Shown piece after piece: positions 4,598 to 27,460 of a stretch of 34,353 nt of DNA (within the stretch, counting starts at the first letter, position 1; every line of letters starts with the position of its first letter). Where the stretch lies: assembly GCA_022340485.1 (NCBI GenBank), contig JAJDNX010000006.1:1-34353 (forward strand). The letters are read 5' to 3'. The notes beneath the pieces are model-generated. The model was not told where the DNA came from and made no database searches. It was given only the letters and a program-made list of their open reading frames with translations. This DNA is from Gammaproteobacteria bacterium. GTDB taxonomy: Bacteria > Pseudomonadota > Gammaproteobacteria > UBA9214. The translations under genes were made by a program, and so were the position numbers.

Positions 4598-4691
4598 TCG
4601 AAAGATACCTGTTGTGTGTTGTTAAAAAGATACAGAGACAGGGGTAAATGCAGAGCTAAGCGCAAAGGCTGTTGTTAGTGCAGGTGTCTAG

Positions 4692-5276
4692 TCATCGTGT
4701 TACCTGGTAGACGTGCGCTTCGGTTGCGACCGCATCCAGGGGGATGTCCCAGTCATTCGGAATAATAGCGGTTTGCTTCTGCAATTCGTAGGCAAGCCCG
4801 AGAAGGCGTGGCTTGTGCCAGTGCCGGCGCCTGCGCAGGAAGGCAAAACTGCGATCGTAATAGCCACCTCCCATACCGATACGGTGACCACTGCAATCGA
4901 AGGCAACCAGCGGTGTCAGTACCAGGTCCAGTGCCCTGGGTTTGATCAAGCGGCGGCGCACGGGTTCAGGAATGCCGAAACGGTTGTATGCCAACTCATC
5001 CGACGGGTCGAATTCCGCAAACCACAGCTGTTGCCTTGAAAACGTAACCAGCACGGGAAGGTAAATGGTCTTGCCCAGTCTCCACAGTGATTGCATCAGC
5101 GGGTAGGGATCGATCTCGCCATCTGTTGCCAGGTACGAAGCGATTCGCTGGCTTTGTAACACAAGAGAATGCCGTGCCGTGCGCTGTGCCAGTTGTTCGG
5201 CACAGTAAGCGGCCTCGGCGCAGCTGAGTGATCGCCGTTGCTGGCGGATACTCTGGCGCAGTCGACGAGATGACAT
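4692..5276 (-). CDS. fau: 5-formyltetrahydrofolate cyclo-ligase
   Basis: A 194-residue cytosolic enzyme (also called ygfA) that uses ATP to convert 5-formyl-THF to 5,10-methenyl-THF, clearing a folate storage form that inhibits folate enzymes. The diagnostic C-terminal motif RIGMGGGYYDRSFAFL is present, with basic residues RRLRQSIRQQRRSL at the N-terminus that form the nucleotide site in the family. 5-formyl-THF arises from serine hydroxymethyltransferase side activity with glycine, so the gene links to the glycine cleavage operon downstream. It lies just after the 6S RNA gene, the conserved ssrS-ygfA order, and may be co-transcribed with it. Confidence 0.94.
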   Translation of the reverse strand: MSSRRLRQSIRQQRRSLSCAEAAYCAEQLAQRTARHSLVLQSQRIASYLATDGEIDPYPLMQSLWRLGKTIYLPVLVTFSRQQLWFAEFDPSDELAYNRFGIPEPVRRRLIKPRALDLVLTPLVAFDCSGHRIGMGGGYYDRSFAFLRRRRHWHKPRLLGLAYELQKQTAIIPNDWDIPLDAVATEAHVYQVTR

Positions 5277-5319
5277 GAGTGGGTCCGCTGGGATTGGGTG
5301 TGGTCAGGTGAAAGGGAGA

Positions 5320-5507
5320 GGAGGGCATCCTCCGTACATACCGTTGCAGCTGTTGCCCTTGAACCGAGGGTTCAAGAGGGGGACGGTACTGCTACCTCAG
5401 GCTTTCCGCACATGGCGGACATGCACACCGGTAACAGTTAGGTCCCCTGGATTGGTGATTAGGCTCAAGGAGATCTCAGCCACTATCGAATACAACAGGG
5501 GATGCCC
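5320..5507 (-). ncRNA. ssrS: 6S RNA
   Basis: The gene lies in the gap between zapA and fau on the same strand, the conserved site of 6S RNA in gammaproteobacteria. On the minus strand the terminal arms GGGCATCC (5507-5500) and GGATGCCC (5330-5323) pair, giving a molecule of ~188 bases; E. coli 6S is 184. The internal hairpin CTTGAACC...GGTTCAAG (5376-5358) followed by GGCAACAGC matches the conserved 3' segment of E. coli 6S. 6S RNA mimics an open promoter and sequesters sigma-70 RNA polymerase in stationary phase. The ends are judged from the stem and may be off by several bases. Confidence 0.88.
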
Positions 5508-5510
5508 AAA

Positions 5511-5540
5511 TTTAATCAGTAATGACGGCTATCGCGTCAG
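5511..5540 (-). promoter_or_regulatory. Candidate promoter of 6S RNA
   Basis: On the minus strand CTGACG (5540-5535) and ATTAAA (5516-5511) form a -35/-10 pair with an 18-base spacer just before the predicted 6S 5' end. The -35 overlaps the last codons of zapA. Moderate match only. Confidence 0.35.
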
Positions 5541-5854
5541 TTCAGTACGTTTTTCCTGTGCTTGTTCAGTGTTTCTTCAATGCGTGTATTCAGTTTTTCG
5601 AGTCGTTCGGCGGTTGACTGCGTGTGCTCGCTGTCCAGGTAGCCTGCGCGGATGGCATCATGCGCCAGGTTTAGACCCGCCATCACCGCAATTCGATCGA
5701 TGCCGACAACCTTGCCGCTGCTGCGGATTTGTGACATTTTGGCGCTGAGATGCTTTGCAGATGCGATCAGCTCGTCTCGCTCTTCATCCGGGCAGGTGAC
5801 TAGGTATTCCTTGTCCAGGATCTGAATCTTGATGGCATCGGCCTGCTTGTTCAT
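5537..5854 (-). CDS. zapA: Cell division protein ZapA
   Basis: A 105-residue cytosolic protein that binds and bundles FtsZ and stabilises the Z-ring. The N-terminal globular part (KIQILDKEYLVTCPDEERDELIASAKHLSAKM) and GIDRIAVMAGLNLAHD are typical of the family, followed by a coiled coil over the last ~40 residues used for tetramerisation. The ATG overlaps the stop of the upstream zapB-like gene by four bases (ATGA), so the two are translationally coupled. The order zapB-like - zapA - 6S RNA - fau is the standard gammaproteobacterial arrangement. Confidence 0.94.
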   Translation of the reverse strand: MNKQADAIKIQILDKEYLVTCPDEERDELIASAKHLSAKMSQIRSSGKVVGIDRIAVMAGLNLAHDAIRAGYLDSEHTQSTAERLEKLNTRIEETLNKHRKNVLN

Positions 5855-6084
5855 GTGCCTGTCTCCAGAGATTTAAGGCGTGTCACAATCGCGTCGACAC
5901 GGCTGCGTACCTGGTCGTGTTTTTCCAGCAGGTTGGCTCGTTCACTTGCGGTTGTATCCTGCTGGATACGCAGGGAGCGGTTTTCCTGACTCAGGCGTTC
6001 AACCATTTCCAGCAGGGCGGCGACCAGCTCTTCAAGTCGGGAGAGTTCTGCATCAATCAGTGAGGGTGTCGTTTTAGTTGTCAT
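5851..6084 (-). CDS. ZapB-like coiled-coil division protein (TIGR02449-type)
   Basis: A 77-residue protein that is almost wholly a leucine-rich coiled coil (LSRLEELVAALLEMVERLSQENRSLRIQQ), like the small proteins encoded just before zapA in many gammaproteobacteria. A role as a ZapA partner at the Z-ring is inferred from position and from similarity in form to ZapB. It has no Shine-Dalgarno before its ATG, and the ATG lies only 6 bases after a good -10 box, so its mRNA may be leaderless. No other start codon occurs in the first 26 codons. Its stop overlaps the zapA start. Confidence 0.85.
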   Translation of the reverse strand: MTTKTTPSLIDAELSRLEELVAALLEMVERLSQENRSLRIQQDTTASERANLLEKHDQVRSRVDAIVTRLKSLETGT

Positions 6085-6090
6085 GCGGCC

Positions 6091-6119
6091 AATATAGTGC
6101 GGTTGCCCTGCGCGGTCAA
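6091..6119 (-). promoter_or_regulatory. Strong sigma-70 promoter, zapB-like/zapA operon
   Basis: On the minus strand TTGACC (6119-6114) and TATATT (6096-6091) are each five of six bases of consensus with an exact 17-base spacer. The expected transcription start falls at or within a base or two of the A of the ATG at 6084, leaving no room for a leader or ribosome binding site. Confidence 0.72.
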
Positions 6120-6235
6120 TGCCATGATGGAGAGACGTGAGGCAACGGGGTTCGATGTCAGTGTGGTAACCTACCCATGGTTAAGCCGCATGGCTGCGGC
6201 GCTGCAGCCTCTATCACTATTGACAGCGAGGAATT

Positions 6236-6799
6236 ATGTCGCAGGATACATTGCCGGTCAGCCACGATGAGCTGCAGCAGATGTTGCTCGCGGTGAATGC
6301 AGAAGGGGGCGCCAGTGAAGCGCATGGTCTGCTTGCCGGTATTATTTGTGCTGGCGGCAAGCCGGCAGCAGAGCTCTGGCTGGAATATCTCCTGGGTGAG
6401 AATACCCTCAGCGCTGCAGCCGTTAAAATCCGCAAACAGTTGATGACACTGCATGATGATATATTGCGCCAGTTCAACGACGATGCATTCGGTTTTGAGC
6501 TGTTGCTGCCCGGTGATGATGCGCCCCTGTCCCTGCGTACCGAGGGCCTGAGCCAGTGGTGCGGCGGTTTTCTCTACGGTCTTGCACTGGGCGGCTTTCG
6601 CGAGGGGACTGCCATGCCGGAGAATGTCAGTGAAGTCATGAAGGATTTTTATGAAATCTCGCATGCACGCTTCGCCTACGAGACGACCGATGATGCGGAC
6701 GAGGCAGCCTATATGGAAATCGTTGAATATGTTCGCATGAGCGTGCTGCTGCTGCATGAAGAGCTGCAGCCGCTGCCGACTGGCGCGCGCTTGCAATAG
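6236..6799 (+). CDS. ygfB: UPF0149 family protein YgfB
   Basis: A 187-residue cytosolic protein with the YgfB pattern: SHDELQQMLLAVNAEGGASEAHGLLAGIICAG at the N-terminus, LLPGDDAPLSLRTEGLSQWCGGFLYGLALGG in the middle and EAAYMEIVEYVRMSVLLLHEE near the end. The fold is a helical bundle of uncertain biochemical role; in Pseudomonas a YgfB protein has been reported to affect regulation of AmpDh3 and beta-lactam resistance, which need not hold here. GAGGA precedes the ATG at 6236. It leads the run ygfB-pepP-ubiH-ubiI, with pepP beginning 14 bases after its stop, and is divergent from the zap genes. Confidence 0.93.
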   Translation: MSQDTLPVSHDELQQMLLAVNAEGGASEAHGLLAGIICAGGKPAAELWLEYLLGENTLSAAAVKIRKQLMTLHDDILRQFNDDAFGFELLLPGDDAPLSLRTEGLSQWCGGFLYGLALGGFREGTAMPENVSEVMKDFYEISHARFAYETTDDADEAAYMEIVEYVRMSVLLLHEELQPLPTGARLQ

Positions 6800-6813
6800 G
6801 CTTGGGGATTGCC

Positions 6814-8130
6814 ATGATTACACGCAAGGAATTCAGCCGCCGCCGCAAGCAGCTGATGCGCATGATGGGCAAGAACTCGATCGCCATTATTCCAACTGCC
6901 ACGGAGCAGGTACGCAACAGGGATGTGGAGTTTCCGTTCCGGGCTGACAGCGACTTTTATTACTTGACCGGCTTTCGTGAACCGGATGCAGTGGCTGTAT
7001 TGATACCGAAGCGCCCGCACGGCGAGTACTTGCTGTTTTGTCGTGAACGGGATCCCGAGATGGAGACCTGGACCGGCCGGCGTGCCGGTACCCTTGGGGC
7101 CATCGACAGCCATGACGCTGATGACGCCTTTCCTTTCAGTGACATTGATGAAATTCTTCCCGGGCTGATGGAAAGTTGTGACCGCGTTTACTACACCATG
7201 GGATCGCGACCGCAATTTGACCAGCGTGTCATGGAATGGATCAACCGTCTGCGCGAGGGTGCACGTACCGGCATGCGCACGCCTGACAAGTTCGTGTCGC
7301 TGGAGCACCTGCTGCATGACATGCGACTCTACAAGAGCCGCTCGGAGATTCGGGTTATGCGTACCGCTGCGAAGGTGGCCTGCAGTGCACACAGGCGTGC
7401 CATGCAGGCCTGTCGTGCGGGGATGAAGGAGTATGAAATAGAGGCGGAACTGCTGCATGAATTCCGCCGTGCCGGTATGGTGCCGGCCTACACAAGTATC
7501 GTTGGAGGCGGTGCCAACGGCTGTGTACTGCATTACACCGAGAACAGTGCGCCATTGAACGACGGTGATTTACTATTGATAGACGCCGGTGCCGAGTACG
7601 ATTGCTATGCCTCGGATGTGACCCGCACCTTTCCGGTCAATGGCCGCTTCAGTGCGGTGCAGAAGGCATTGTATGAGGTGGTGCTGGCCGCACAGACCGC
7701 TGCTATCAAAAAGGTCCGCCCCGGCAATCACTGGAATGATCCGCATGAAGCCGCGGTTCGGGTACTGACCCGGGGACTGCTGAAGCTGGGTATCCTGAAA
7801 GGCAAATTGGCGGAGCTGATACGCACAGATGCCTACCGGCGTTTTTATATGCACCGTACCGGCCATTGGCTGGGCATGGATGTTCACGACGTCGGTGACT
7901 ATAAAGTAGGAAATGAATGGCGCGTGCTGGAGCCGGGCATGGTGCTGACGGTTGAGCCCGGTCTGTATATTCCCGCAGGCAGTCGCGGGGTTGCGAGGAA
8001 ATGGTGGAATACCGGCATACGCATCGAGGATGATGTCCTGGTGACCAAAGATGAGCCGGAGATATTGAGTGATGCGGTACCCAGAACGGTTGCCGGTATC
8101 GAGGCCTTAATGACAAATGCCACAGTATGA
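6814..8130 (+). CDS. pepP: Xaa-Pro aminopeptidase P
   Basis: A 438-residue cytosolic metalloprotease that removes the N-terminal residue ahead of proline; E. coli PepP is 441. An N-terminal creatinase-like domain (to ~170) is followed by the pita-bread catalytic domain. All five dinuclear manganese ligands are seen: D257 in LLIDAG, D268 in YASDVT, H351 in GHWLG, E381 in LTVEPGLY and E405 in IRIEDD, close to E. coli D260, D271, H354, E383 and E406. I chose the ATG at 6814, which has GGGG six bases upstream, over a TTG at 6802. Its 3' end overlaps ubiH by 14 bases. Confidence 0.96.
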   Translation: MITRKEFSRRRKQLMRMMGKNSIAIIPTATEQVRNRDVEFPFRADSDFYYLTGFREPDAVAVLIPKRPHGEYLLFCRERDPEMETWTGRRAGTLGAIDSHDADDAFPFSDIDEILPGLMESCDRVYYTMGSRPQFDQRVMEWINRLREGARTGMRTPDKFVSLEHLLHDMRLYKSRSEIRVMRTAAKVACSAHRRAMQACRAGMKEYEIEAELLHEFRRAGMVPAYTSIVGGGANGCVLHYTENSAPLNDGDLLLIDAGAEYDCYASDVTRTFPVNGRFSAVQKALYEVVLAAQTAAIKKVRPGNHWNDPHEAAVRVLTRGLLKLGILKGKLAELIRTDAYRRFYMHRTGHWLGMDVHDVGDYKVGNEWRVLEPGMVLTVEPGLYIPAGSRGVARKWWNTGIRIEDDVLVTKDEPEILSDAVPRTVAGIEALMTNATV

Positions 8131-9334
8131 CGTAATCATTATTGGCGGTGGCATGGTCGGCGCCAGTCTTGCCTGTGCCTTGTCAGGACACGGTCTGCGC
8201 ATTGCACTGATCGAGGCGATTGAGCTGGAGACACGCAGTGAGACCGGCTATGACGAACGCGCCATTGCGCTGGCCTATGGTACCCGGCGCATCTTTGCCG
8301 GACTGCAGTTATGGGATGAACTGGCCGCGGATGCCACGCCGATCCACCGCATCCATGTATCGGATCGCGGTCATTTCGGCATGGTGCACATGGACCGTGC
8401 CGAAGAAGGGTTGCCTGCGCTTGGCTATGTGGTGCCGGCCCGTGCCATTGGTCGGGTCCTGGCGGAAGCCACGAAAGGCATCAAGGAACTGGACAGTTTT
8501 TGTCCGGCCACGGTCACGACAGTAAAGCGGACAGCCGCCGCCATGGAAGTTGAACTGTTCCATGAGGGCATCAGGATGACCCTGAGTGGACGCTTGGTCG
8601 TTGCCGCCGATGGTGCAGACTCACCGGTCCGGGAACAGTTTGGCATCAAGAGCAGCATAATCGACTATCAGCAAACGGCGATTGTCACCAATATTACCCC
8701 GCAACTGGCGCATAACCATGTTGCCTATGAACGGTTTACCGAGTCCGGACCGCTGGCATTGTTACCAATGACCGAACAGCGCTGTGCCGTGGTGTGGACC
8801 GTCACTTCCAGTCAGGTCGAGTCCATCATGGCGCTGGATGATGCCGGCTTCGTTGCCGCACTCCAGGCCCGCTTCGGCTATCGACTGGGGCGGCTCGAGC
8901 GGGTCGGGCGCAGGCAGGCGTGGCCCTTGCGACTGGTACAGGCAAGGGAAACGGTACGCGAGCGACTGGCGCTGGTGGGCAATGCCGTGCATACCTTGCA
9001 TCCCATTGCGGGACAGGGTTTTAACCTGGGCGCTCGTGATATTGCGGCACTTGCCGAGGTACTGGTGGATGCGGTCAACGGGGGCGAGGATCCCGGTTCA
9101 CTGCAGGTGCTGCAGCGTTATGCAGACTGGCGGCAGCATGACCACAGAAATGTCACCGTGTTTACCGACGGCCTGGTACGCCTGTTTTCACTGCCGCTGC
9201 CGGCGCTGGATATGGCACGCGGCGCCGGCATGCTGGCACTGGATCTGCTGCCCCCGGCGAAGCGTCTGCTGACGCGCATGACAATGGGTCGTACAGGGCG
9301 TACGCCGCGACTGGCGCGCGGTTTGCCGTTGTAA
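8117..9334 (+). CDS. ubiH: 2-octaprenyl-6-methoxyphenol hydroxylase UbiH
   Basis: A 405-residue FAD-dependent monooxygenase that hydroxylates the ring of the ubiquinone precursor (C1 position in E. coli), acting with the aerobic Ubi complex at the membrane. Seen motifs: the FAD Rossmann glycines GGGMVGASLA at the start, the mid-protein ADGADSPVR motif, and GNAVHTLHPIAGQGFNLGARD, the second FAD motif in its UbiH form (GN rather than GD). It is translated from an ATG inside the end of pepP, so the two are coupled. The next gene encodes a paralogue, the ubiH-ubiI pairing of E. coli. Confidence 0.94.
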   Translation: MPQYDVIIIGGGMVGASLACALSGHGLRIALIEAIELETRSETGYDERAIALAYGTRRIFAGLQLWDELAADATPIHRIHVSDRGHFGMVHMDRAEEGLPALGYVVPARAIGRVLAEATKGIKELDSFCPATVTTVKRTAAAMEVELFHEGIRMTLSGRLVVAADGADSPVREQFGIKSSIIDYQQTAIVTNITPQLAHNHVAYERFTESGPLALLPMTEQRCAVVWTVTSSQVESIMALDDAGFVAALQARFGYRLGRLERVGRRQAWPLRLVQARETVRERLALVGNAVHTLHPIAGQGFNLGARDIAALAEVLVDAVNGGEDPGSLQVLQRYADWRQHDHRNVTVFTDGLVRLFSLPLPALDMARGAGMLALDLLPPAKRLLTRMTMGRTGRTPRLARGLPL

Positions 9335-9402
9335 GCCGATGGTTTTCATTGTATCCGCAACCCTGCAGCCGGCCGTGATCTCTTCGTCATGGGCTGATTG
9401 CT

Positions 9403-10644
9403 ATGCATTCCCTGGCCATGTCCCGTTCTGACGTCATCCTCATCGGTGGCGGCATCGTTGGTGCAACGGCTGCCTGTGCACTGGGTCGATCCGGTGTGCG
9501 CGTGGCCCTGGTAGAAGCACGTGCACCGCTCGACCCCGAGGTACAGCCACCTGACCCGCGGGTATTTGCCATTACACGTGCATCAGAAAGGATCTTCCGG
9601 TCGCTGGGGGTATGGGATGCAATGCAGCAAAAGGGTGCCTTTGCATTCAGTGAAATGGAAGTCTGGGATTCTGGCGGTGAGGGGATTACCCACTTTGACT
9701 GTGCCGAGATCGGGGAACCCTGTCTTGGACATATTATCGAACCGCGTTTTATTCAGGCGGCACTCTGGCAGCAACTGCAGTCAATCGATGCCGTGTCATT
9801 GTATTGCCCGGCACGCTTTCAGAGCATCCATGTGCTCGACGACAGGGTTGAAGTAAGCCTGGAGGACTCACGGCAGCTCAGCGCCCGGTTGCTGATTGCC
9901 GCGGATGGCAGCCGTTCGCCGGTGCGCACGATGCTCGGCATGAAAACGCGTCGCCATGACTATCGGCAAAGCAGTCTGGTCGCGCTGGTGAAGACCTCTG
10001 AGCCACACCGGAATACCGCCTGGCAACGCTTCTTGCCGGGTGGACCGCTGGCGTTTCTGCCGATGGCCGATGGCTGGAGTTCCATTGTCTGGACCATGCC
10101 GTCAGAACAGGTCGAGCGTCTGCTGAGCGCAGACACGGAAGTGTTTCACGAAGAACTGGCTGCGGCTTTTGAGTATCGACTCGGCAGGATCATCGCTTCG
10201 GGTGAACGGCAAGCCTGGCCGCTGCAGCGCCTGCACGCACATCAGTACGTCAAGCCCCGCGTTGCCCTGATCGGAGATGCCGCCCATGCCATCCACCCCC
10301 TGGCGGGGCAGGGTGTGAACCTCGGGTTGCTGGATGCGGCATCCCTGGCCGAAGTCCTCATCGACGCAGGACAGCGTGGCAGGGATCCAGGCAGCCTGGC
10401 GGTGCTGCGGCGTTATGAGCGCTGGCGCCGTGGCGACAACCTGTTAATGATGATGGCCATGGACGGTATCAACCAGGTTTTCAGCAAACCCCGATCGCTA
10501 CTGCACCGGGCGGCCAACCTGGGGCTGTCGCTGGTCAACCGCTCCGCTGCGGCCAGACGGCAGTTGATGCGACACGCCATGGGACTCGGTGGTGACTTGC
10601 CGGCGCTTGCGACAGTGTCTGAGGAAGTGCCCTCATCTGATTGA
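9403..10644 (+). CDS. ubiI: UbiI/VisC-type ubiquinone biosynthesis hydroxylase
   Basis: A 413-residue FAD monooxygenase paralogous to the preceding UbiH. It has GGGIVGATAACALG near residue 15, AADGSRSPVR around residue 168, and GDAAHAIHPLAGQGVNLGLLDAASLAEVL near residue 290. In E. coli UbiI hydroxylates C5 of the ring; related UbiF/UbiM/Coq6 enzymes act at other positions, so the exact carbon is inferred from gene order. An in-frame ATG at 9418 is a possible start instead of 9403; neither has a clear ribosome binding site. It is the last gene before the glycine riboswitch. Confidence 0.88.
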   Translation: MHSLAMSRSDVILIGGGIVGATAACALGRSGVRVALVEARAPLDPEVQPPDPRVFAITRASERIFRSLGVWDAMQQKGAFAFSEMEVWDSGGEGITHFDCAEIGEPCLGHIIEPRFIQAALWQQLQSIDAVSLYCPARFQSIHVLDDRVEVSLEDSRQLSARLLIAADGSRSPVRTMLGMKTRRHDYRQSSLVALVKTSEPHRNTAWQRFLPGGPLAFLPMADGWSSIVWTMPSEQVERLLSADTEVFHEELAAAFEYRLGRIIASGERQAWPLQRLHAHQYVKPRVALIGDAAHAIHPLAGQGVNLGLLDAASLAEVLIDAGQRGRDPGSLAVLRRYERWRRGDNLLMMMAMDGINQVFSKPRSLLHRAANLGLSLVNRSAAARRQLMRHAMGLGGDLPALATVSEEVPSSD

Positions 10645-10861
10645 TCTTTTCTATCTTAAAAAGCATTAGAAACAGGGCGCCGCTGGTCGCTGCCAGGCCG
10701 GATGGTGACAGCAGCGGATTGTTTTGCTGGCCGTAGCCCAGTAAAAAACCTCGCCATGGTCAGCTGCGCATGCGGAACTTTCGTTCCTGGCGCCCTTGAG
10801 TCCCGGCTCGAAAGAGGCTGTCTGTAGGGAATGGATGCTGCCCGTACAAACAGTCAGGCAT

Positions 10862-10891
10862 CTGGCACTCTCTGGCAGTCAGGAGTATATT
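10862..10891 (+). promoter_or_regulatory. Candidate promoter of the gcv operon
   Basis: TATATT (10886-10891) is a five-of-six -10 box, with CTGGCA (10862-10867; four of six) as -35 and an 18-base spacer. The start near 10898 would fall ten or so bases before the riboswitch, as expected. Confidence 0.45.
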
Positions 10892-10908
10892 TGCCCCTCA
10901 ACTTACAC

Positions 10909-11100
10909 ACTGCTGCGGGAGAGAGTTCCAGGTTGCCAGGCGCCTGGAAACGCCGAAGGCGCAACACGCTCGGAAACGCTCAGGCAAATGGACCGTAGCA
11001 GCAGTTGACTCTGGAGAGCGGTTGCAATGCGACCCACCGAAGGGGACAGGCGCGTCACTGAAGACGTGGCCACTCTCTCAGGTCACCGGACAGAGGGGCG
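10909..11100 (+). ncRNA. Tandem glycine riboswitch
   Basis: Two adjacent aptamers lie in the leader of gcvT. In aptamer 1 (about 10909-11002) P1 pairs TGCTGCGG (10911-10918) with CCGTAGCA (10993-11000), and it carries GGGAGAG, CGCCGAAGGCGCAA and ACGCTCAGGCAAA. In aptamer 2 (about 11007-11097) P1 pairs CTCTG (11009-11013) with CAGAG (11091-11095), and it carries GGAGAGCGG, CACCGAAGGGGACA and CACTCTCTCAGGTCACCGGACAGA. These match the glycine class consensus. Such switches usually turn on glycine cleavage genes when glycine is plentiful. A short linker joins the aptamers, as in known cooperative pairs. Confidence 0.95.
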
Positions 11101-11131
11101 ACGGTTCGCGCAGGCTGCCGTCGCCCTTTTT
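11096..11131 (+). terminator. Riboswitch-controlled intrinsic terminator
   Basis: GGGCGACGG (11096-11104) pairs perfectly with CCGTCGCCC (11118-11126) and is followed by five T's. It directly abuts the 3' P1 strand of aptamer 2 (CAGAG, 11091-11095). Extending the hairpin downward would use those P1 bases with the T-tract, so aptamer folding and full terminator formation compete. This fits an ON switch working by transcription attenuation. Confidence 0.85.
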
Positions 11132-11171
11132 CATTTCTGCCGACAGATGGTTACAGAGAAAACACAAAGAT

Positions 11172-12263
11172 ATGAGCAACAAGACCCCCCTGTATGAAGA
11201 GCACCTGGCTGATGGTGGCAAGCTGGTCGACTTCGCCGGCTGGGAGATGCCGATCCATTACGGTTCCCAGATCGAGGAACACAACAACGTGCGCCAGGAT
11301 GCCGGCATGTTCGATGTCTCGCACATGACTGTGGTTGACCTGAACGGCGCGCGTACCCGTGAATTCCTGCGCTACCTGCTGGCAAACAACGTGGATCGCC
11401 TCAAGGACAGCGGCAAGGCATTGTACAGCTGCATGCTGAACGAGGACGGTGGCGTCATTGACGACCTGATCGTTTATTTCCTGCGTGATGATTATTTTCG
11501 CATGGTGGTCAATGCCGGTACCCGCGACAAGGACCTCGCCTGGCTCAACAAGCAGGCAGCGGCCTTTGAGGTTACGGTCAGCGAGCGCCCGGAGCTGGCC
11601 ATGATCGCGATACAGGGTCCCAATGCCCGTGAGAAGACGCTGCCATTGCTGAGCGCCGCGGCACGCACAGCGGCGAGCGAGTTACCGCCTTTCTTCGGTG
11701 TCTTTGACGGGGACTGGTTTATCGCGCGCACCGGCTATACCGGCGAAGACGGGTTTGAGATTGTATTGCCGGCCACGGATGCCGTGGGTTTCTGGCGGCA
11801 ATTGCGTGCGGCCGGGGTGCGGCCGACCGGGCTGGGCGCGCGTGACACCCTGCGACTGGAAGCGGGTATGAATCTGTACGGTTCTGATATGGATGAATCC
11901 ATCAGTCCACTGGAGGCAGCGCTTGGCTGGACAGTCGCCTGGGAGCCCGCTGAACGGAATTTTATCGGGCGCACTGCTCTGGAAAAGCAGCGCCAGCAGG
12001 GGGGCTCGCAGAAACTGGTTGGATTGATACTGGAAGGCAAGGGCGTACTGCGCAATCACCAGAAGGTGATTACCGCGGGTGACGGCGAGGGCGAGATCAC
12101 CAGCGGCAGTTTTTCACCGACCCTGCAGCGCGCGATTGCCTTCGCACGTGTGCCCAGGGCGACGGGTGATCACTGCCAGGTGGAGGTACGCGGCAAGCTG
12201 CTGCCGGCGCGGGTAGTGAAACCACCGTTTGTACGCAACGGGGAAGCACAGATCGAACTTTGA
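11172..12263 (+). CDS. gcvT: Glycine cleavage system T protein (aminomethyltransferase)
   Basis: A 363-residue cytosolic protein (E. coli 364) that takes the aminomethyl group from lipoyl-GcvH, releases ammonia and makes 5,10-methylene-THF. It opens with [26 protein letters not shown] and has GMFDVSHM and [11 protein letters not shown]97 corresponds to the catalytic aspartate of E. coli. [13 protein letters not shown] lies in the folate-binding region and the C-terminal barrel carries [11 protein letters not shown]. The ATG at 11172 gives the family start; an earlier in-frame codon at 11022 would translate the riboswitch and is rejected. First gene of the glycine cleavage operon. Confidence 0.95.
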
Positions 12264-18918: not shown

Positions 18919-19323
18919 TCAGCCCTTCTTGATGTGCTTGATATAGCGCGGGTGCGCAATCTGGTCGACCTTGAGCGAATCGCCTGAAATGCTAAAGCAT
19001 GCGTTGCTACCGGCTACACACAGTTTGCAGGCGACTGTGCCGCGCCAGCTGATGGGTAACGGGGCGTGATCGCGATAGGTAAAGATGTTATCGGTGAGAT
19101 CGCCGCCCTTGATCTCACAGGGGCATTGCGGCAGTTCACCCTCGATCTCGATGCCCTTGAGGCTCAGGTCGAGCGCCTGTGTCCAGAGCGAGTCTTCGAT
19201 GGCATTTTCCATTTCCTGCACCAGCTGCACCTGTGAAAAGTGCAGCGTGATATCGTCCTCGCCCTGTTCAATACTGGCCAGTTGCGCACCATGTAGTTGC
19301 AGTATTTGAGTAATGTCGCTCAT
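18919..19323 (-). CDS. Uncharacterised small Cys-containing protein
   Basis: A 134-residue soluble protein I cannot assign. The first 60 residues look alternately helical and beta ([36 protein letters not shown]). The second half has C67-x-C69 and C99-x-x-C102 with C109, which could hold a metal or form disulfides. The ATG overlaps the stop of the upstream DUF255 gene by four bases and has AAGGA 6-7 bases before it, inside that gene. The coupling suggests a shared function with the DUF255 protein. No signal peptide. Confidence 0.75.
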
Positions 19324-21407
19324 GGGTGTTCCTTTGTATCCGTTCCTGTGATCAGGGTTTTGAAGCTGTCGATATCCGTTAGCGGTGCACTGCAGGTGTG
19401 GCCGCTACACACGTAGGCCACGGCCACTCCCCGGGGAGCACGCTCTCCGAGTTGCCCGGGCAACGGCTCGGCTGTGTCGGGAATGGTAAGTGTCAATCGT
19501 CTTGGTGCATAGGGGCGGGTGGCCAGTGTCCGCCAGTCCGCGGTTGCCGCGTCTGCACCGCGAATGATGATGGTCTGCAGCGGGAACAACGATTCCTCCA
19601 GTGCCAGCAGCAGACTGGCGTGTCCATGCGGCATGCTGCAGATTTCCCTCCAGCTCGCTTTCAGGGCGTTTTCTGCTGCTTGCAGGTAGCGGCTTTCACC
19701 CAGCAGGTGCCCGAGGCGAGCCAGTACCTTGGCCGCAATCCCGTTGCCGGAGGGGGTCGCATCGTCATGATTGGGCTTGGGACGCTGGATGAGCGTTTCG
19801 TGGTCATCCGAGGTAAAGAAAAATCCTCCTGCCGGGTCCTGAAAGTGCTGCAGTACCACCTCGGCCAGTTCCATCGCAAACGACAAGTCCCGTGCTCGCC
19901 AGCGCACCTGCAGCAGTTCCAGTATGCCGTCGATCAGGTATACATAATCATCGAGATAGGCGTTCAGATGGGCGCGACCGTCCTTGCAAGTGGCAAGCAG
20001 GCGGCCTTCTTTCCACAGTGTCTGGTAGATGAAATCCAGTGCGCGTTCCGCCGAGGCCGTCCATTCCGGCCGCTCGAGGTGACGCCCGGCAATGGCCATG
20101 CCGCGAATCATCAGGCCGTTCCAGGAGGTCAGTATCTTGTCATCCCGGCCCGGAGGAATACGATGTCCGCGTTCCTCCAGCAGGGTGGCGCGTGCGCGCC
20201 GGTCGAGTGGTTCGATGTCGGCCTCAGCGAGGGAAAATTCCCTCGCAAGTTCCGCCCGGGTGCGGAACACGTGCAGGTGCCACTGTCCCTCAAAGTTGGC
20301 GGTACGGTCCAGGCCATAGCGCCGCGCAAACACCGCATAGTCATCCTCGCGCAGCAACGCCTTCACTGTGGCCGGTGTCCATACGTAGTACTTGCCTTCC
20401 TCGCCTTCAGCGTCGGCATCGAGGCTGGAGTAATAACCGCCTTCGGGTGCCTGCATGTCACGCATCACCCAGTCTGCGGTCTGCTGACAGATGCGATGGA
20501 ACAGGGGGTTGCCGGTCGCCGCCCAGGCCTCGGCATAGAGTGCCAGCAGCGCGCCATTGTCATAGAGCATCTTTTCGAAGTGCGGGATCATCCAGTGATC
20601 ATCCACCGAGTAACGGTAGAAGCCGCCGCCGAGCTGGTCGAAGAGTCCGCCGCGCGCCATTCTCTCCAGGGTAAACACGGCCATGTGCAGGGCGCGCTGG
20701 TCGCGGGTCCCCGCTGTGGTACAAGTACCTGCCCAGTGACGCAGCAGTCGCTCGATATTGGTCGGGTGCGGGAATTTCGGCGCACTGCCGAAGCCGCCAT
20801 CCCGTTCATCGAAGGCGCGTTCAAGTTGCTGGCGCGCGGTATCCAGGGGTAATGGATTCAGCGAGGTGGCCGGGTCAGTCTGCTGCATGGACTGCAGGGC
20901 CTCTACGAGGGTGCTGTTCTGCTTGCGGATGTCGGCCTCGTTTTCGGCAAGGTAATCGTGCACGCGTTGCAGCAGGTCACGAAAGGAAGGCAGGCCATGA
21001 CGCGGTTCACTCGGGAAGTAGGTGCCGGCAAAAAACGGCACCCTGTCATCCGGGGTCAGGAACACCGTCAATGGCCAGCCGCCGGAGCGCTGCGTCAACA
21101 GTGAATGCGCGGTCTGGTAGATCTTGTCGATGTCCGGACGTTCTTCACGGTCGACCTTGATGTTGACGTACAGCCGGTTCATCAGCTCGGCCGTCCCCGG
21201 ATCCTCAAAGGACTCGTGTGCCATGACATGGCACCAGTGGCAGGCAGAGTAGCCGATGGACAGCAGGATCGGCTTGTTTTCCCTGTGAGCCTTTTGCAGT
21301 GCAGCGGTTCCCCACGGATACCACTCTACCGGGTTACGGGCATGCTGTAGCAGGTACGGACTGGTCTCGTTGGCGAGGGCGTTGCGAGTATCGCTTTGCT
21401 GATTCAT
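19320..21407 (-). CDS. DUF255 thioredoxin-domain protein (YyaL/SPATA20 type)
   Basis: A 695-residue protein of the widespread YyaL/SPATA20 family. The N-terminal DUF255 domain starts [21 protein letters not shown] and has the thioredoxin-like C56-HW-C59 in [20 protein letters not shown], then [10 protein letters not shown] and [12 protein letters not shown]. The rest is a six-hairpin (alpha/alpha) toroid like glycoside hydrolases and GlcNAc 2-epimerases, with [25 protein letters not shown]. The molecular activity is not established. I chose the ATG at 21407 (AAGGA just upstream, family start); a longer frame would run into the divergent glycosyltransferase gene at 21511. Coupled to the 134-residue unknown downstream. 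Confidence 0.93.
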
Positions 21408-21441
21408 GGCATCCTTTTCGTACTGTCGTGTGCTGCAGTGT

Positions 21442-21510: not shown

Positions 21511-22227
21511 GTGGAGCTGAGCATCGTCATCCCGGTATTCAATGAAGTGGAGACCATTGCTGCACTGCTGGATGAAATCGGCGGCTGCTTCGGGGCCGTG
21601 ACCGGTTATGAAATTATTGTGGTTGATGACGGCAGCATCGACGGTACAGCGGCGGTGTTGCAGGCGGCCCGTCAGTCACACCCGCAGTTGAGGATCTTGC
21701 GACACCGTGAGCGCTGCGGGCAGAGTGCCGCGATTGCCTCGGGGGTGAAGGCCGCACGCACGCCGTGGATCGCGACCCTGGATGGTGATGGCCAGAATGA
21801 CCCTGCCGACATTCTGAAACTGTACCGCGTCATGGACGAGTCACCCGATGATGTGCAGCTGGTCTCCGGCTATCGCAGGCAACGTATGGATGGCTGGGTG
21901 CGACGGGTTACATCACGCGTTGCAAACGCGGTCCGGGCCGCGGTATTGCATGACCATGTTCCGGATTCGGCCTGTGGCCTGAAAGTCCTTGCACGGGCCA
22001 CGTTTCTGGACCTGCCGCAGTTCGATCATATGCACCGTTTCCTGCCGGCGCTGGTACAACGCCAGGGTGGCAAGGTGCTGTCTGTCGAGGTGAATCATCG
22101 CAAGCGCCTGACCGGGCAGTCAAAGTACGGCATTCACAACCGCCTCTGGGTCGGTCTGATCGATACGCTTGGGGTGTTGTGGCTGCTGCGACGCGGCAAA
22201 CTGCCGGTTGTCACTGAAGTCCCGTAG
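21511..22227 (+). CDS. GT2 family polyprenyl-phosphate-sugar synthase-like glycosyltransferase
   Basis: A 238-residue GT-A fold enzyme like dolichyl-phosphate-mannose synthase and ArnC. It has [13 protein letters not shown] at the start, the nucleotide site [14 protein letters not shown], the metal-binding [11 protein letters not shown] (about residues 91-101) and [17 protein letters not shown] near the end. The family moves a sugar from UDP- or GDP-sugar to a polyprenyl phosphate on the inner face of the membrane. Unlike ArnC it has no C-terminal transmembrane pair. The GTG start at 21511 is supported by GGAG upstream. Its stop shares a base with an alternative GTG start of the next gene, and the third gene encodes a matching transferase. 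Confidence 0.87.
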
Positions 22228-22232
22228 TGTGT

Positions 22233-22925
22233 ATGGAGGCGCGATTGATCTTCCGTGGCCTGCTGGTGATCGTCATCCTCGTGCTCGCCAGCTACCTGGT
22301 GAAGGATCTACTGGACCAGGGCTGGGTGGATGCACAGGTGCGGGACCAGGGCCCTACCGGCGTACTGCTGTTTGTGCTGGTCAGTTGCCTGCTGGGCAGT
22401 GTCGGCTTGTCACGCCAGCTGATTGCCTTCCTGGGCGGTTATGCCTTCGGTTTTTTACAGGGCTTTGTGTTCTCCATGCTGGCGGTGGTGGCAGCTTGCG
22501 TTACGACCTTTATTATTGCCCGCAGCCTGCTGCGTTCCTTGCTGGAGAAACGCTTCACGCTGCGCATTCAACAGGTCGACCGGTTCCTGCATGAGAATAC
22601 CTTCACCATGGCCCTGCTGGTGCGCCTGTTGCCACTCGGCAGCAACTGGATGATCAACATTGCAGCGGGCGTTTCCAGTGTCAGGAAGTGGCCGTTCTTT
22701 CTGGGTTCGGCGCTGGGTTATATACCGCAAATGCTGATCTTCTCGCTGGTCGGCAGTGGTGCGCGCATCGACCAGTTCTGGCAGGTCGCCATTGCCATGG
22801 CCCTGCTGGTGCTGGCAACGGTTCTGGGCCTGGTACTGTATCGACGCGCCGGGCATGGCAGAGCGCCCGGCCAGCCGCCGGCCTTGTCAGTGGCCCGAGA
22901 CTCCCCGGGCGTGACACAAGAATGA
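22233..22925 (+). CDS. TVP38/TMEM64 (VTT domain) membrane protein
   Basis: A 230-residue inner-membrane protein with about six hydrophobic segments and the VTT-domain pattern: RQLIAFLGGYAFGFLQGFVFSML, then LVRLLPLGSNWMINIAAGVSSVRKWPFFLGSALGYIPQ (spread over residues 130-168). VTT proteins include the DedA family; some DedA members have recently been shown to recycle undecaprenyl phosphate across the membrane. Here it lies between two lipid-linked-sugar genes, so a flippase role is a fair inference, not shown. The ATG at 22233 is preferred; a GTG at 22227 is an alternative. Its stop overlaps the next start (ATGA). Confidence 0.85.
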   Translation: MEARLIFRGLLVIVILVLASYLVKDLLDQGWVDAQVRDQGPTGVLLFVLVSCLLGSVGLSRQLIAFLGGYAFGFLQGFVFSMLAVVAACVTTFIIARSLLRSLLEKRFTLRIQQVDRFLHENTFTMALLVRLLPLGSNWMINIAAGVSSVRKWPFFLGSALGYIPQMLIFSLVGSGARIDQFWQVAIAMALLVLATVLGLVLYRRAGHGRAPGQPPALSVARDSPGVTQE

Positions 22926-24517
22926 ATTCACGCGATCGCTCCTGGGCCGGATTGCTTGCGCTCTGGCTACTGGTGTTGCTGACGGCGTTATTCACGCGGC
23001 CATTACTGCCTGTCGACGAGACACGTTATGCCAGCGTTGCCTGGGAAATGTGGTCGCGTGGCGATTTTCTCGTCCCCTACCTGAATGGCGAACCCTACAG
23101 TCACAAGCCACCGCTCTATTTCTGGCTGGTTCATGCCGGCTGGTGGCTGTTTGGAGTGCATGAATGGGTATTGCGCTGCATCTCGCCGCTGATCGCGCTG
23201 TTCGTGCTTGTTGCCAGCGCAAGCCTGGCGCGGCAACTGTGGCCGCGGGACACCGGCACGGCAGAGCGGGTCCCGTGGCTGGTATTTGGCAGCCTCTTCT
23301 TTACCGCCTTTGCCACCTGGGTGCAGATCGACCTGTTACTGGTGCTGATGACGCTGCTGGCCATGAACGGCATTATCCATGCGGCACACGGCGCACGCAG
23401 CGGCTGGCTGCTCGCGGCTGTTGCCATTGGTCTGGGTATCCTCTCCAAGGGGCCGGTGATGCTGCTGCAGGTCCTGCCGGTTGCTTTACTGGCGCCATTG
23501 TGGCGGCGTGATGTCGATACGCCCCTGTGGTGGCGCTGGTATGCCGACCTGGCCGGCGCCGTGATGCTTGGTGCGGTGATTGCACTGGCCTGGGCGTTAC
23601 CGGCTGCGCAGGCAGGTGGCGAAAGCTATCGGGAGGCCATACTCTGGGGGCAGACGGCCCACCGCATGGTGCAGTCCTTTGCCCATGCGCACGCTGTGTG
23701 GTGGTATGTGCCGTGGCTATTGCTGTTGTTTGCTCCCTGGATACTGTTACCCGAGTGCTGGTCGGCCCTGCGGCATCCCGGTATGGCCTCGGACCAGGGG
23801 GTGCGTTTTTGCCTGACCTGGCTGGTTACGGTGTTTGTGCTGATGAGCCTGGTCAGCGGCAAGCAGCTCAAGTATCTGCTGCCGCTGCTACCCGCATTTG
23901 CCTTGCTGCTGGGGCGGCTATGGAGTCGCAGGGGTGGGCCGGCAAGAACACAGCGCCCCTGGCTGCTGATAGGGGTGCTGCTGCTGGCGGGCGGGCTGCT
24001 GGTGTTGCTGCCCTTCGTCATGGATACGGCGGCATGGATCAACAACATCCACCCGCTGTGGGGTGGCTTGCTGGTGGCCGCAGCGGTCGTGCTGTTGCTG
24101 CAGCGGCCTGTGCCACTGGCAGACTATCCGCACCGTCTGACGCTGCTCTCCGTGTGGGTGGTGATGGTGCTCCACTTCGGGGTGTTCACAACCGCCACAC
24201 CGGCCTACGATCTGCAGTCTGCCAGTCGCGTGATCGCCAGTGCACAGGCGCAGGGTCATGAGGTTGCAGTGGTATCCCGTTATCACGGCCAGTTCGGTTT
24301 TGAGGGCCGGCTGCTACAACCGTTGTTGCAACTGCAGGCAGATGACGTGCACTCGTGGGCTGCACAGCATCCACAGGATTACCTGGTCGTCATTACCCGG
24401 TCTGCAGCGCCCGTTGAAGAGTACCCAAAGGCGGTATTTACCCAGCCCTACCGCAGCGGGTACCTTGTCATCCTGACGGGCGATGCACTGGTAAAGAACC
24501 CTGCTGTGCTGCACTGA
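22922..24517 (+). CDS. ArnT-like GT39 family glycosyltransferase
   Basis: A 531-residue polytopic inner-membrane enzyme with about 11-12 hydrophobic helices. The first periplasmic loop carries the catalytic signature LPVDETRYASVAWEMWSRGD, followed by NGEPYSHKPPLYFWLVHAGW, as in ArnT and protein mannosyltransferases; the DE of this loop is the catalytic region. These enzymes transfer a sugar from a polyprenyl phosphate carrier to a lipid A, protein or glycan acceptor on the periplasmic side. The acceptor is unknown. A longer frame from 22688 overlaps the VTT gene in another frame; the ATG at 22922 is right. It ends 30 bases before rlmI. Confidence 0.88.
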   Translation: MNSRDRSWAGLLALWLLVLLTALFTRPLLPVDETRYASVAWEMWSRGDFLVPYLNGEPYSHKPPLYFWLVHAGWWLFGVHEWVLRCISPLIALFVLVASASLARQLWPRDTGTAERVPWLVFGSLFFTAFATWVQIDLLLVLMTLLAMNGIIHAAHGARSGWLLAAVAIGLGILSKGPVMLLQVLPVALLAPLWRRDVDTPLWWRWYADLAGAVMLGAVIALAWALPAAQAGGESYREAILWGQTAHRMVQSFAHAHAVWWYVPWLLLLFAPWILLPECWSALRHPGMASDQGVRFCLTWLVTVFVLMSLVSGKQLKYLLPLLPAFALLLGRLWSRRGGPARTQRPWLLIGVLLLAGGLLVLLPFVMDTAAWINNIHPLWGGLLVAAAVVLLLQRPVPLADYPHRLTLLSVWVVMVLHFGVFTTATPAYDLQSASRVIASAQAQGHEVAVVSRYHGQFGFEGRLLQPLLQLQADDVHSWAAQHPQDYLVVITRSAAPVEEYPKAVFTQPYRSGYLVILTGDALVKNPAVLH

Positions 24518-24547: not shown

Positions 24548-25747
24548 ATGACAGCAACCAATCTTCCCATCCTCCTGCTGAAACGCAACGAGGAGCGTCG
24601 CCTTGCTGCCGGTCATCTGTGGGTGTACAGCAATGAAGTCGACAGCCGCAAGACACCGCTGAGCGCTTTTGAGCCAGGCACGCTGGCAGTGATACAGTCA
24701 GCGGTCGGAAAGACACTGGGTAGCGGCTATGTAAATCCACACTCGCTGATCTGTGCACGCCTGCTGACGCGGCGTCCGCGTGCCGTGGTCGATGCCGGTT
24801 TTATTGAGCGTCGTTTGCAAAGTGCCTTGCGGTTGCGGGAGTCGCTGTATGATCATCCGGATTATCGCCTGGTGTACGGGGAGAGTGACGGTCTTCCGGG
24901 TCTGGTGATTGACCGTTACGGGGATGTGCTGGTCGTGCAAATTACCACGGCAGGCATGGAGACCCTCCGTGACCTGTTGCTGGAGGTGCTGGAGCGAGAG
25001 TTTGCGCCCAGGGGTATCTTGCTGCGTAATGACACCGTGGTACGCGCCCTTGAGGGCCTGTCGCAGGAGCCGCAGGTCATTGGCAACGTCCCGGAGACCG
25101 TGAGCCTGGAAGAGGGCGGGGTGCAATTTGAGGTGCCGCTGGCTGGCGGCCAGAAGACCGGCTGGTTCTATGATCAGCGCAGCAACCGCAGCGCCATGCA
25201 TAAATATGTTCACAACAAACGGGTGCTGGATGTATTCAGTTATATCGGCGCCTGGGGTCTGCAGGCGGCAGTGGCCGGCGCCAGCGAGGTATGCTGTGTG
25301 GATGCCTCTGCGGCCGCACAGTCGATCATGCAAAGAAATGCCATAGCCAATGGGCTGCAGGAAAGGGTATGTTACGAGACCGGTGATGCCTTTGAGGTAC
25401 TCAAGGCGATGCAGGCAAGCGCGCAGCGCTTCGATGTGGTCATTGTCGATCCACCCGCCTTCATTAAACGCCGCAAGGAAATCAGGACCGGCGAGCAGGG
25501 TTACGCTCGCCTGAATCGCCTTGCGATGCAGGTGCTGGCGCCCGACGGGATACTGATATCCTGTTCCTGCTCCATGCATCTGCCGGCAGAGCGGCTGCAA
25601 TCTATCCTCTATCAGTCGGCACGCAAGCTGGGGCGGCAAATGCAGATACTTGAACGCGGCTTCCAGTCCATGGATCATCCGGTACACCCGGCAATTGCGG
25701 AAACCGCCTACCTGAAAGCGCTATTCTGCCGGGTACCGGCGACCTGA
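24548..25747 (+). CDS. rlmI: Class I SAM-dependent 23S rRNA methyltransferase RlmI-like
   Basis: A 399-residue cytosolic enzyme with an N-terminal PUA domain (LLLKRNEERRLAAGHLWVYSNEV), a central EEHD-type segment (YGESDGLPGLVIDRYGDVLVVQ) and a C-terminal Rossmann methyltransferase domain with VLDVFSYIGAWGLQAAVAGA, DVVIVDPPAFIKRRKE and ISCSCSMHL. It fits RlmI, which makes m5C1962 in 23S rRNA of E. coli. Other PUA-RFM enzymes (RlmK, RlmO) have related architecture, so the target base is inferred. Starts 30 bases after the GT39 gene. Confidence 0.9.
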   Translation: MTATNLPILLLKRNEERRLAAGHLWVYSNEVDSRKTPLSAFEPGTLAVIQSAVGKTLGSGYVNPHSLICARLLTRRPRAVVDAGFIERRLQSALRLRESLYDHPDYRLVYGESDGLPGLVIDRYGDVLVVQITTAGMETLRDLLLEVLEREFAPRGILLRNDTVVRALEGLSQEPQVIGNVPETVSLEEGGVQFEVPLAGGQKTGWFYDQRSNRSAMHKYVHNKRVLDVFSYIGAWGLQAAVAGASEVCCVDASAAAQSIMQRNAIANGLQERVCYETGDAFEVLKAMQASAQRFDVVIVDPPAFIKRRKEIRTGEQGYARLNRLAMQVLAPDGILISCSCSMHLPAERLQSILYQSARKLGRQMQILERGFQSMDHPVHPAIAETAYLKALFCRVPAT

Positions 25748-25810: not shown

Positions 25811-26608
25811 ATGCTGACCTACCCCGATATCAATCCGGTTGCCATTGCCATCGGTCCCTTTGAAGTACACTGGTACGGACTGATGTACCTGGTCGCATTT
25901 ATGACAGGCTGGTGGCTGGGTACGATACGCACCCGCCGTGTCGGCACCGAATGGAAAGCGGCCGAGATCAGTGACCTGGTATTCTATTTTGCACTGGGTG
26001 CCGTACTGGGCGGACGGATTGGCTATACCCTGATGTACAACTTCAGTGGCTTTGTTGAGAACCCGTCGGTGATTTTCAAGATCTGGCAGGGCGGCATGTC
26101 CTACCATGGCGGCATGATCGGTGTGTTTGTTGCCATGTGGTTGTATGGACGACATACCGGCCGGACCTTTTTCCAGGTCACCGATTTTCTTGCCCCGCTG
26201 GTACCACTGGGACTGGGGGCCGGCCGACTGGGTAATTTTATTAATGGCGAGTTATGGGGCCGCCCGACAACCCTGCCCTGGGGTATGGTGTTTCCGTTTG
26301 TCGACAACCAGCCACGTCATCCGTCCATGCTCTACGAGTTCTTCTTCGAAGGCCTGGTGTTCTTTGCCATACTGTGGATATTTTCGAGCAAGCCACGGCC
26401 GACCATGGCCGTATCCGGTTTGTACCTGATCTGCTACGGTGTGTTCCGCTTCGCGGTTGAATTTGTACGGGTCCCGGATGCGCAGATTGGCTTCCTTGCC
26501 TTTGACTGGCTGACCATGGGGCAGCTGTTGTCGTTCCCGATGATCATCATCGGGCTCGCCTTTTTCATTTATGCCTATCGCCGCAGCGACGGCAAGGTCA
26601 GCTGGTAA
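25811..26608 (+). CDS. lgt: Prolipoprotein diacylglyceryl transferase
   Basis: A 265-residue inner-membrane enzyme with about seven helices that attaches diacylglycerol from phosphatidylglycerol to the lipobox cysteine of prolipoproteins. It has VHWYGLMYLVAFMTGWWLG, MSYHGGMIGVF (with the conserved histidine) and the Lgt signature GAGRLGNFINGELWGRPT near residues 137-153. Essential in most Gram-negative bacteria. It precedes thyA and folA, the same order seen in E. coli (lgt-thyA). Confidence 0.96.
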   Translation: MLTYPDINPVAIAIGPFEVHWYGLMYLVAFMTGWWLGTIRTRRVGTEWKAAEISDLVFYFALGAVLGGRIGYTLMYNFSGFVENPSVIFKIWQGGMSYHGGMIGVFVAMWLYGRHTGRTFFQVTDFLAPLVPLGLGAGRLGNFINGELWGRPTTLPWGMVFPFVDNQPRHPSMLYEFFFEGLVFFAILWIFSSKPRPTMAVSGLYLICYGVFRFAVEFVRVPDAQIGFLAFDWLTMGQLLSFPMIIIGLAFFIYAYRRSDGKVSW

Positions 26609-26665: not shown

Positions 26666-27460
26666 ATGAAACAGTACCTCGACTTGATGCGCCACGTGCG
26701 CGATCACGGCACACGCAAGGAAGACCGTACCGGCACCGGTACGGTCAGTGTATTCGGCTACCAGATGCGCTTTGATCTGGCGGCTGGCTTTCCGCTGGTT
26801 ACCACCAAGAAATGCCACCTGCGATCCATCCTGCATGAACTGCTATGGTTCCTGAAAGGGGATACCAATCTGCGTTACCTGCATGACAACAAGGTGACCA
26901 TCTGGGATGAATGGGCTGATGAGGAGGGCAATCTGGGGCCGGTGTATGGTTATCAGTGGCGCTCCTGGCCAACCCCGGATGGTGGCAGTATCGACCAGAT
27001 CAGCCAGGTGATCGAACAACTCAGGAAGAATCCTGATTCGCGCCGCATTATCGTCAGTGCCTGGAACGTCAGTGATATCGAGAACATGGCATTGCCCCCG
27101 TGCCATGCCTTTTTCCAGTTTTATGTTGCGGAAGGCAGGCTATCCTGCCAGTTATACCAGCGCAGCGCCGACATCTTCCTAGGGGTGCCGTTCAATATTG
27201 CCTCCTATGCGCTGTTGACCATGATGATGGCACAGGTGACCGGTCTGCAGGCGGGTGATTTCGTGCATACCTTCGGTGATGCCCACCTGTATCTCAATCA
27301 CCTCGAACAGGCTAACCTGCAGCTGTCACGTACACCGCGTCAACTGCCGGTGATGCGGCTCAATCCGGACGTGGATGACCTGTTTGCCTTTCGTTACGAG
27401 GATTTTGAACTGCAGAATTACGATCCGCATCCTCATATCAAGGCACCGGTCGCGGTATAA
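26666..27460 (+). CDS. thyA: Thymidylate synthase
   Basis: A 264-residue cytosolic enzyme, the E. coli length. It converts dUMP to dTMP with 5,10-methylene-THF, producing dihydrofolate. The active-site cysteine is C146 in [14 protein letters not shown]; other conserved motifs are [36 protein letters not shown] and [23 protein letters not shown] (the last spread over residues 167-189). Its one-carbon donor is supplied in part by the glycine cleavage system upstream. Followed after 8 bases by folA, which regenerates its product. Confidence 0.97.

Follow-up and report, generated by a model that had tools for sequence, protein, structure and literature searches.

What does a membrane protein of the VTT (TVP38/TMEM64) type do when its gene is wedged between those of two glycosyltransferases? 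The question arises from a 34,353-nucleotide stretch of gammaproteobacterial DNA (GTDB lineage UBA9214; GenBank assembly GCA_022340485.1, contig JAJDNX010000006.1, positions 1 to 34,353 of the forward strand; 'the window' below), where such a gene lies between one for a glycosyltransferase of family 2 (GT2) and one for a glycosyltransferase of family 39 (GT39). We consider it fairly probable that the operon encodes a three-component periplasmic glycosylation system in which the VTT protein is the polyprenyl-phosphate-sugar flippase. Its genes are as follows.

21511..22227, plus strand: GT2, polyprenyl-phosphate-sugar synthase-like (ArnC/Dpm1-type), 238 residues, no membrane helix (PF00535; ArnC 9hwj; hydropathy)
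22233..22925, plus strand: VTT/DedA-superfamily membrane protein, 230 residues, proposed polyprenyl-phosphate-sugar flippase (PF09335; YdjX/YdjZ scores; AlphaFold model)
22922..24517, plus strand: GT39/PMT_2 glycosyltransferase of the GT-C type, ArnT-like, 531 residues (PF13231; PDB 5ezm; motifs)

The initial annotation had described a compact three-gene operon, and both its coordinates and its family assignments hold, with all three proteins above the Pfam cut-offs (GT2, PF00535, 101.5 bits; VTT, PF09335, 80.2 bits against a cut-off of 33.9; GT39, PF13231, 44.2 bits). The GT2 reading frame starts with GTG at 21511 and its TAG stop ends at 22227; the VTT frame runs from ATG at 22233 (alternative start, GTG at 22227) to TGA at 22925. 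All genes are co-directional, with a gap of 5 bases between GT2 and VTT and an ATGA overlap between VTT and GT39, whose ATG lies at 22922. A simple hydropathy scan detected six hydrophobic segments in VTT, ten in GT39 and none in GT2, the last as the annotation had stated. The nearest NCBIfam models are ArnC for GT2 (98.6 bits against a cut-off of 529) and ArnT for GT39 (108.7 bits against 567), both scores falling far under the cut-offs. In the PDB, GT2 matches ArnC best (9hwj, E 8.5e-23; sll0501 is also among the best), and GT39 matches ArnT (5ezm, E 5.7e-20). Residues D32-E33, K62, D137 and K176 of GT39, which we take to be the ArnT-type active site, are kept in 61 or 62 of 62 aligned rows (duplicates included). 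A Pfam scan gave no match to the Arnt_C domain in this GT39.

By family membership, GT2 would use a nucleotide sugar to charge polyprenyl phosphate with a single sugar on the cytoplasmic side of the membrane, and GT39 would pass the sugar to an acceptor, freeing polyprenyl phosphate. Between these two predicted steps, VTT would move the polyprenyl-phosphate-sugar to the periplasmic leaflet, as its position in the operon and its swapping with a second family, LAB_N, suggest. The make-flip-transfer module put forward in the initial annotation is thus supported, its flip step through position and swapping. A system of this kind is known: in GtrA/GtrB/Gtr, GtcA/CsbB/YfhO and the Citrobacter undP-ribofuranose system, too, one glycosyltransferase charges a polyprenyl phosphate, another, of the GT-C type, is the transferase, and a membrane protein takes the flippase slot. 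The slot is reported to hold GtrA, SMR or MATE proteins in three-component systems (PMC11127046, PMC7389260), whereas here it is filled by VTT or LAB_N. Among open-licence papers in PubMed Central (PMC), as far as their available text goes, we found none linking VTT/TVP38 with a polyprenyl-phosphate glycosyltransferase operon, and within that literature a VTT protein in the flippase slot has apparently not been described before. Proteins that flip monosaccharide-phosphate-polyprenols are mostly presumed to do so; direct flipping evidence is described as missing for the SMR and MATE candidates (PMC11127046) and likewise for GtcA (PMC7389260).

Is the arrangement peculiar to this strain? Among related genomes (57 were searched, and loci were mapped with tblastn), the GT2-VTT-GT39 triple occurs within the window's genus, in one more genus of its family and in a genome of another family (G056; genomes carry G numbers and locus records L numbers). 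A further scan, in which the VTT alignment was run against named genomes, confirmed 104 loci, of which 80, picked by the peptide patterns RLLP[LV]GSN[WF] and GS[AM]LGY[IVL]PQ, were kept and 24 left out; several of the 80 records seem to duplicate G-numbered genomes and were kept out of the class counts below. GT2 lies directly upstream of VTT in 63 of the 80 loci and directly downstream in 3, while GT39 directly follows VTT in 38, 36 of which also have the upstream GT2. Among the carriers, as named in the record titles, are Ectothiorhodospiraceae and Thiohalobacter metagenome-assembled genomes (MAGs), Magnetospirillum, Blastochloris, Roseomonas, a Gallionellaceae MAG, Marinobacter and Desulfovibrio MAGs. 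Marinobacter santoriniensis (L162) and M. sediminum (L161) have GT2, VTT and a GT39-like gene one after another. VTT-GT2 adjacency spans three proteobacterial classes and Thermodesulfobacteriota. The adjacency surveyed here is therefore conserved well beyond a single strain, and the arrangement is more than chance, since this order of the three genes recurs within the genus, within the family and further afield. Around other VTT proteins, at eleven loci (L002, L003, L020-L027 and L029), there is neither a GT2 nor a GT39 of these types in the neighbouring 1.5 kb or so, or as far as the contig reaches.

Three of the surveyed loci have peculiarities of their own. The record titled 'Halobacteria archaeon' (L098) bears this gammaproteobacterial operon; the MAG is probably mislabelled or mixed. 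VTT and GT39 of G007 lie about 270 bases apart (L042:3300-3570), and the sequence between them has apparently repeat-like stretches on both strands, judged by look. A Desulfobacteraceae MAG (L138:2172-7019) has a GT2-VTT pair with a PMT_2 protein upstream and, downstream, a 614-residue protein without a Pfam match that is possibly a further GT-C enzyme.

The main finding concerns genomes where the middle gene is a different one. Four genomes of the window's family (G013, G014, G017 and G019) encode, between GT2 and GT39, not such a VTT but a protein of about 95 residues. All eight middle proteins scanned belong to LAB_N (PF07578), seven with 111-115 bits and one, from G034, with 70 bits. We then took a class sample of 303 genomes, searched with VTT, LAB_N and GT2 alignments. 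GT2 was present in 52 of these, accompanied by LAB_N in 35, by VTT in 12, by both in none and by neither above threshold in 5; one of these five has a contig edge right after GT2 (G089) and another has a divergent VTT (103 bits) beside it (G172). LAB_N occurred in 40 genomes (32 directly downstream of GT2; 3 with GT2 on a different contig, at another place or on the opposite strand; 5 without GT2) and VTT in 15 (8 directly downstream of GT2, 3 of them from the window's genus; 4 with GT2 elsewhere; 3 without GT2), and VTT and LAB_N of these types were never found together in the 303 genomes. Fisher tests, in which genomes are counted without correction for kinship, gave p values of 3e-8 for the mutual exclusion of VTT and LAB_N and 6e-8 for the association of VTT with GT2.

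Phylogeny indicates that the two have replaced one another repeatedly. On a concatenated GT2+GT39 tree of 36 chosen rows, which is unrooted and gives no direction to the swaps, the VTT/LAB_N label changes 5 times (bootstrap 5-95% range 5-5), at least 4 of these changes being forced by well-supported (starred) branches. The LAB_N genomes G013, G017 and G019 nest within the VTT clade of their family (support 96/92 and 100/98), and the LAB_N genome G226 is sister to the VTT genome G102 of the same genus (support 96/93). Both cases share a chromosomal block, with DUF255 to the left and Lgt to the right (ThyA too where the stretch reaches), and the blocks of G226 and G102 also include the methyltransferase. 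Because the flanking block is the same in both cases, it was the middle gene that changed, its partners remaining in position, except if entire operons passed between near kin. A tree of GT2 alone, with 105 rows, has 10 changes of the middle gene but many weak branches. The corresponding flanking genes in the window are:

19320..21410, minus strand: DUF255/thioredoxin-domain gene, conserved left flank, outside the pathway (PF03190; synteny)
24548..25747, plus strand: RlmI-like methyltransferase, conserved right flank in many carriers (NCBIfam scan; synteny)
25811..26608, plus strand: Lgt-like gene, conserved right flank (synteny; named by eye)
26666-27460: ThyA-like gene, after the Lgt-like gene (named by eye)

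LAB_N and VTT thus occupy the same operon slot in sister genomes while belonging to different Pfam families, LAB_N being the shorter. The three best PDB matches of the LAB_N profile are weak (E 0.15-0.21), one being named a SemiSWEET and the others being 4qnd and 4x5m, presumably SemiSWEETs as well. Compared with PQ-loop, SemiSWEET and MPDU1 proteins LAB_N is half-size, and its sequence link to SemiSWEET is weak. The PQ-loop group, with which LAB_N has been grouped, includes MPDU1, which is required for the use of dolichol-phosphate sugars (PMC3281891). An identification of LAB_N with FlmX was dropped, FlmX being cited within the SMR family.

How does the VTT protein compare with its own relatives? 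Compared with E. coli proteins, its clade scores 78 bits against YdjX and YdjZ and 21 bits against YqjA, with YqaA not reported. By the YdjX/YdjZ scores the clade is COG0398-like, an assignment that leans on the COG labels of YdjX, YdjZ, YqjA and YqaA as we assume them to be. The AlphaFold model (predicted local distance difference test, pLDDT, 87.6) contains the helix pairs 40-56/61-72 and 123-132/138-147, with residues 57-60 and 133-137 in turns; modelled in this way, the pairs may be read as two re-entrant hairpins with their tips at the turns:

22401..22418, plus strand: tip of the first VTT re-entrant hairpin, residues 57-62, with the clade-specific Arg61-Gln62 (alignment and model)
22629..22646, plus strand: tip of the second VTT re-entrant hairpin, residues 133-138, with Gly136 and Asn138 (alignment and model)

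R61 and Q62 are present in all 79 clade members compared and are mostly Gly and Ser in 11 paralogues; G136 (75 of 79) and N138 (78 of 79) are both almost always Phe in the paralogues; and Q166, within a GYxPQ motif, is found in 79 of 79 and is mostly Gly in the paralogues. Picking loci by pattern inflates conservation at residues 131-139 and 158-166, and R61-Q62 lies outside both patterns. Thirteen members obtained instead by a whole-protein search have R61 in 13, Q62 in 12, G136 in 10, N138 in 12 and Q166 in 12. If the model is right, an Arg-Gln pair facing Asn across the hairpin tips would suit a phosphate-sugar head group. The clade has the PF09335 domain and, in the model, the two re-entrant hairpins in common with UptA-type (COG0586) and COG0398 proteins; unlike its DedA/VTT relatives, it has the Arg-Gln pair in hairpin 1, Gly and Asn in hairpin 2, the GYxPQ motif and a tie to a polyprenyl-phosphate GT2. 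For the model, Foldseek returned no PDB structure with E < 0.001, which is uninformative and not evidence of a new fold, and the VTT sequence profile had no useful match in the PDB.

The initial annotation had offered VTT as either the dedicated flippase of the charged carrier or the recycler of the spent one. The first is favoured because VTT has been exchanged in place with LAB_N, a member of the group that includes MPDU1, and the protein does not have the residues reported for DedA recyclers of undecaprenyl phosphate (Und-P). As a recycler, VTT would bring used polyprenyl phosphate back from the outer leaflet to the inner one while another protein flipped the charged carrier, which we judge unlikely. 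It is indeed reported that Und-P is flipped by DedA-superfamily proteins and that aminoarabinosylated lipid A falls to undetectable levels in P. aeruginosa when the DedA protein PA4029 is lost (PMC12893004). The VTT protein is, however, nearer YdjX/YdjZ than YqjA. Recycling DedA proteins are described with acidic residues at hairpin 1 and paired Arg at hairpin 2 (PMC10127716), and this UptA-type signature was not found in VTT, which has VGLSRQ at the first tip, without acidic residues, and RLLPLGSN at the second, with one Arg. Four other VTT-domain proteins are encoded in the window's genome, five in all. Moreover, VTT replaces LAB_N, and the genome has no LAB_N and no GtrA (PF04138) that would be left to move the charged carrier outwards (of other carrier families, these two were searched for genome-wide). 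Recycling would also leave both the exchange with LAB_N and the VTT residues unexplained.

Several observations weigh against VTT as the flippase of the charged carrier. COG0398 proteins are held to be unlikely Und-P flippases and possibly phospholipid scramblases (PMC10127716), and LAB_N is itself a presumed flippase. A genome assessed as 100% complete (G016) keeps an intact VTT at the conserved locus (L096/L011), although its whole sequence matches neither GT39 at a threshold of 1e-10 nor GT2 at one of 1e-20, and G022 (L099/L013) keeps VTT beside partial or broken GT2 and GT39 matches. Altogether 14 of the 80 loci have no intact adjacent GT2, namely L096, L099 and twelve more, among them L156, which starts at a contig edge; one of the 14 has a broken GT2. 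VTT lies apart from GT2 in G138, G156, G234 and G253, and many alphaproteobacterial GT2-VTT pairs have no adjoining GT39. VTT without GT2 and GT39, together with pairs without GT39, implies that VTT may act for two or more transferases or play an additional part, and 'dedicated', as the annotation had it, does not apply throughout (G016, G022).

The same observations touch on the proposal that VTT is an ordinary COG0398 phospholipid scramblase, merely co-transcribed with glycosylation genes. Its relationship to COG0398, the published view of that group (PMC10127716) and the retention of VTT in G016 are consistent with this. Ordinary scramblase activity nevertheless seems very improbable to us, given that the 11 loci of other VTT proteins have no such GT2 or GT39 nearby, that the clade differs from other VTT proteins at the hairpin tips and that its adjacency recurs across three proteobacterial classes and Thermodesulfobacteriota.

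VTT genes of the survey also have neighbours of other kinds. Several alphaproteobacterial GT2-VTT pairs adjoin an AccA-like gene or precede a BON-domain-like or GroES/GroEL-like gene (names assigned by eye); the AccA-like upstream neighbour is common to L103, L106, L125, L135, L145 and L155 and marks a second conserved genomic home. At L053:1-4149 and L054:1-4114 a VTT gene of the clade is upstream of a large gene, whose 985-residue product in L053 matches GH18, polysaccharide deacetylase and GT2 models. More distant VTT members (L056:3291-5653 and L057:1803-4039) adjoin Amidohydro_3 genes, not glycosyltransferases, and a proteobacterial MAG (L160:5165-6367) has VTT without GT2 and a gene for a DegT/DnrJ-type aminotransferase close behind.

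Could the middle protein hold the pathway together rather than transport its intermediate? VTT, and LAB_N in its place, might act as an anchor or scaffold, keeping the helix-less GT2 at the membrane and handing its product to GT39. The hydropathy scan found no membrane segment in 112 of 117 GT2 copies of this type (duplicates included), and such a role has been proposed for Rv3789 (PMC7389260). At L101, L119 and L132, however, VTT adjoins a different GT2 that has two C-terminal membrane segments of its own, and the swapping of two unrelated families, with conserved polar hairpin tips, fits transport better than docking. We therefore give anchoring a small chance, and transport of the charged carrier remains our preferred function.

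The similarity of both transferases to Arn proteins raises the question of whether these genes make up a second aminoarabinose (arn) system, with lipid A as its target. The closest solved structures are those of ArnC and ArnT, and the operon has an ArnC-like GT2 and an ArnT-like GT-C enzyme in common with the ArnC, ArnE/ArnF and ArnT pathway. Unlike that pathway, its GT2 is without the two C-terminal helices, its GT39 without an Arnt_C match, VTT replaces the SMR flippase and no sugar-making genes lie beside it. GT2 and GT39 also score far below the arn cut-offs, and no ArnA, ArnB or ArnD was present among the flanking genes scanned. A separate arn-like operon is located on another contig of the window's genome (L173, G000:C28:35000-48000, 3234-12091), with genes for an ArnB-like protein, a split ArnA-like protein, an ArnD-like protein, an ArnC-like protein with two C-terminal membrane segments and two tandem GT39 enzymes, the second with an Arnt_C domain. 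Where ArnE and ArnF would be expected, it has one 123-residue EamA/SMR-like gene (EamA 28.9 bits, cut-off 28.2). That the operon of the window is a second arn system is accordingly extremely improbable. The label 'ArnT-like' stands for family and active-site motifs, while aminoarabinosylation of lipid A is an unlikely job for this GT39 because the genome has the separate arn-like operon. There seem to be two polyprenyl-phosphate pathways in this cell, each with its own carrier gene in the operon.

More tentatively, and with slightly less confidence than doubt, we propose that a COG0398-type VTT clade, related to the scramblases TMEM41B and VMP1 of eukaryotes, is now a specific polyprenyl-phosphate-monosaccharide flippase, interchangeable in the operon with LAB_N, which would itself be a half-size, PQ-loop-like counterpart of MPDU1 in bacteria. 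If this is true, one branch of COG0398 would gain a function and the role of MPDU1 a bacterial model. VTT and LAB_N would then be small proteins open to testing, with the swap as a control already in place: two unrelated families would share one step, and by swapping them nature would have run a complementation experiment at least four times over.

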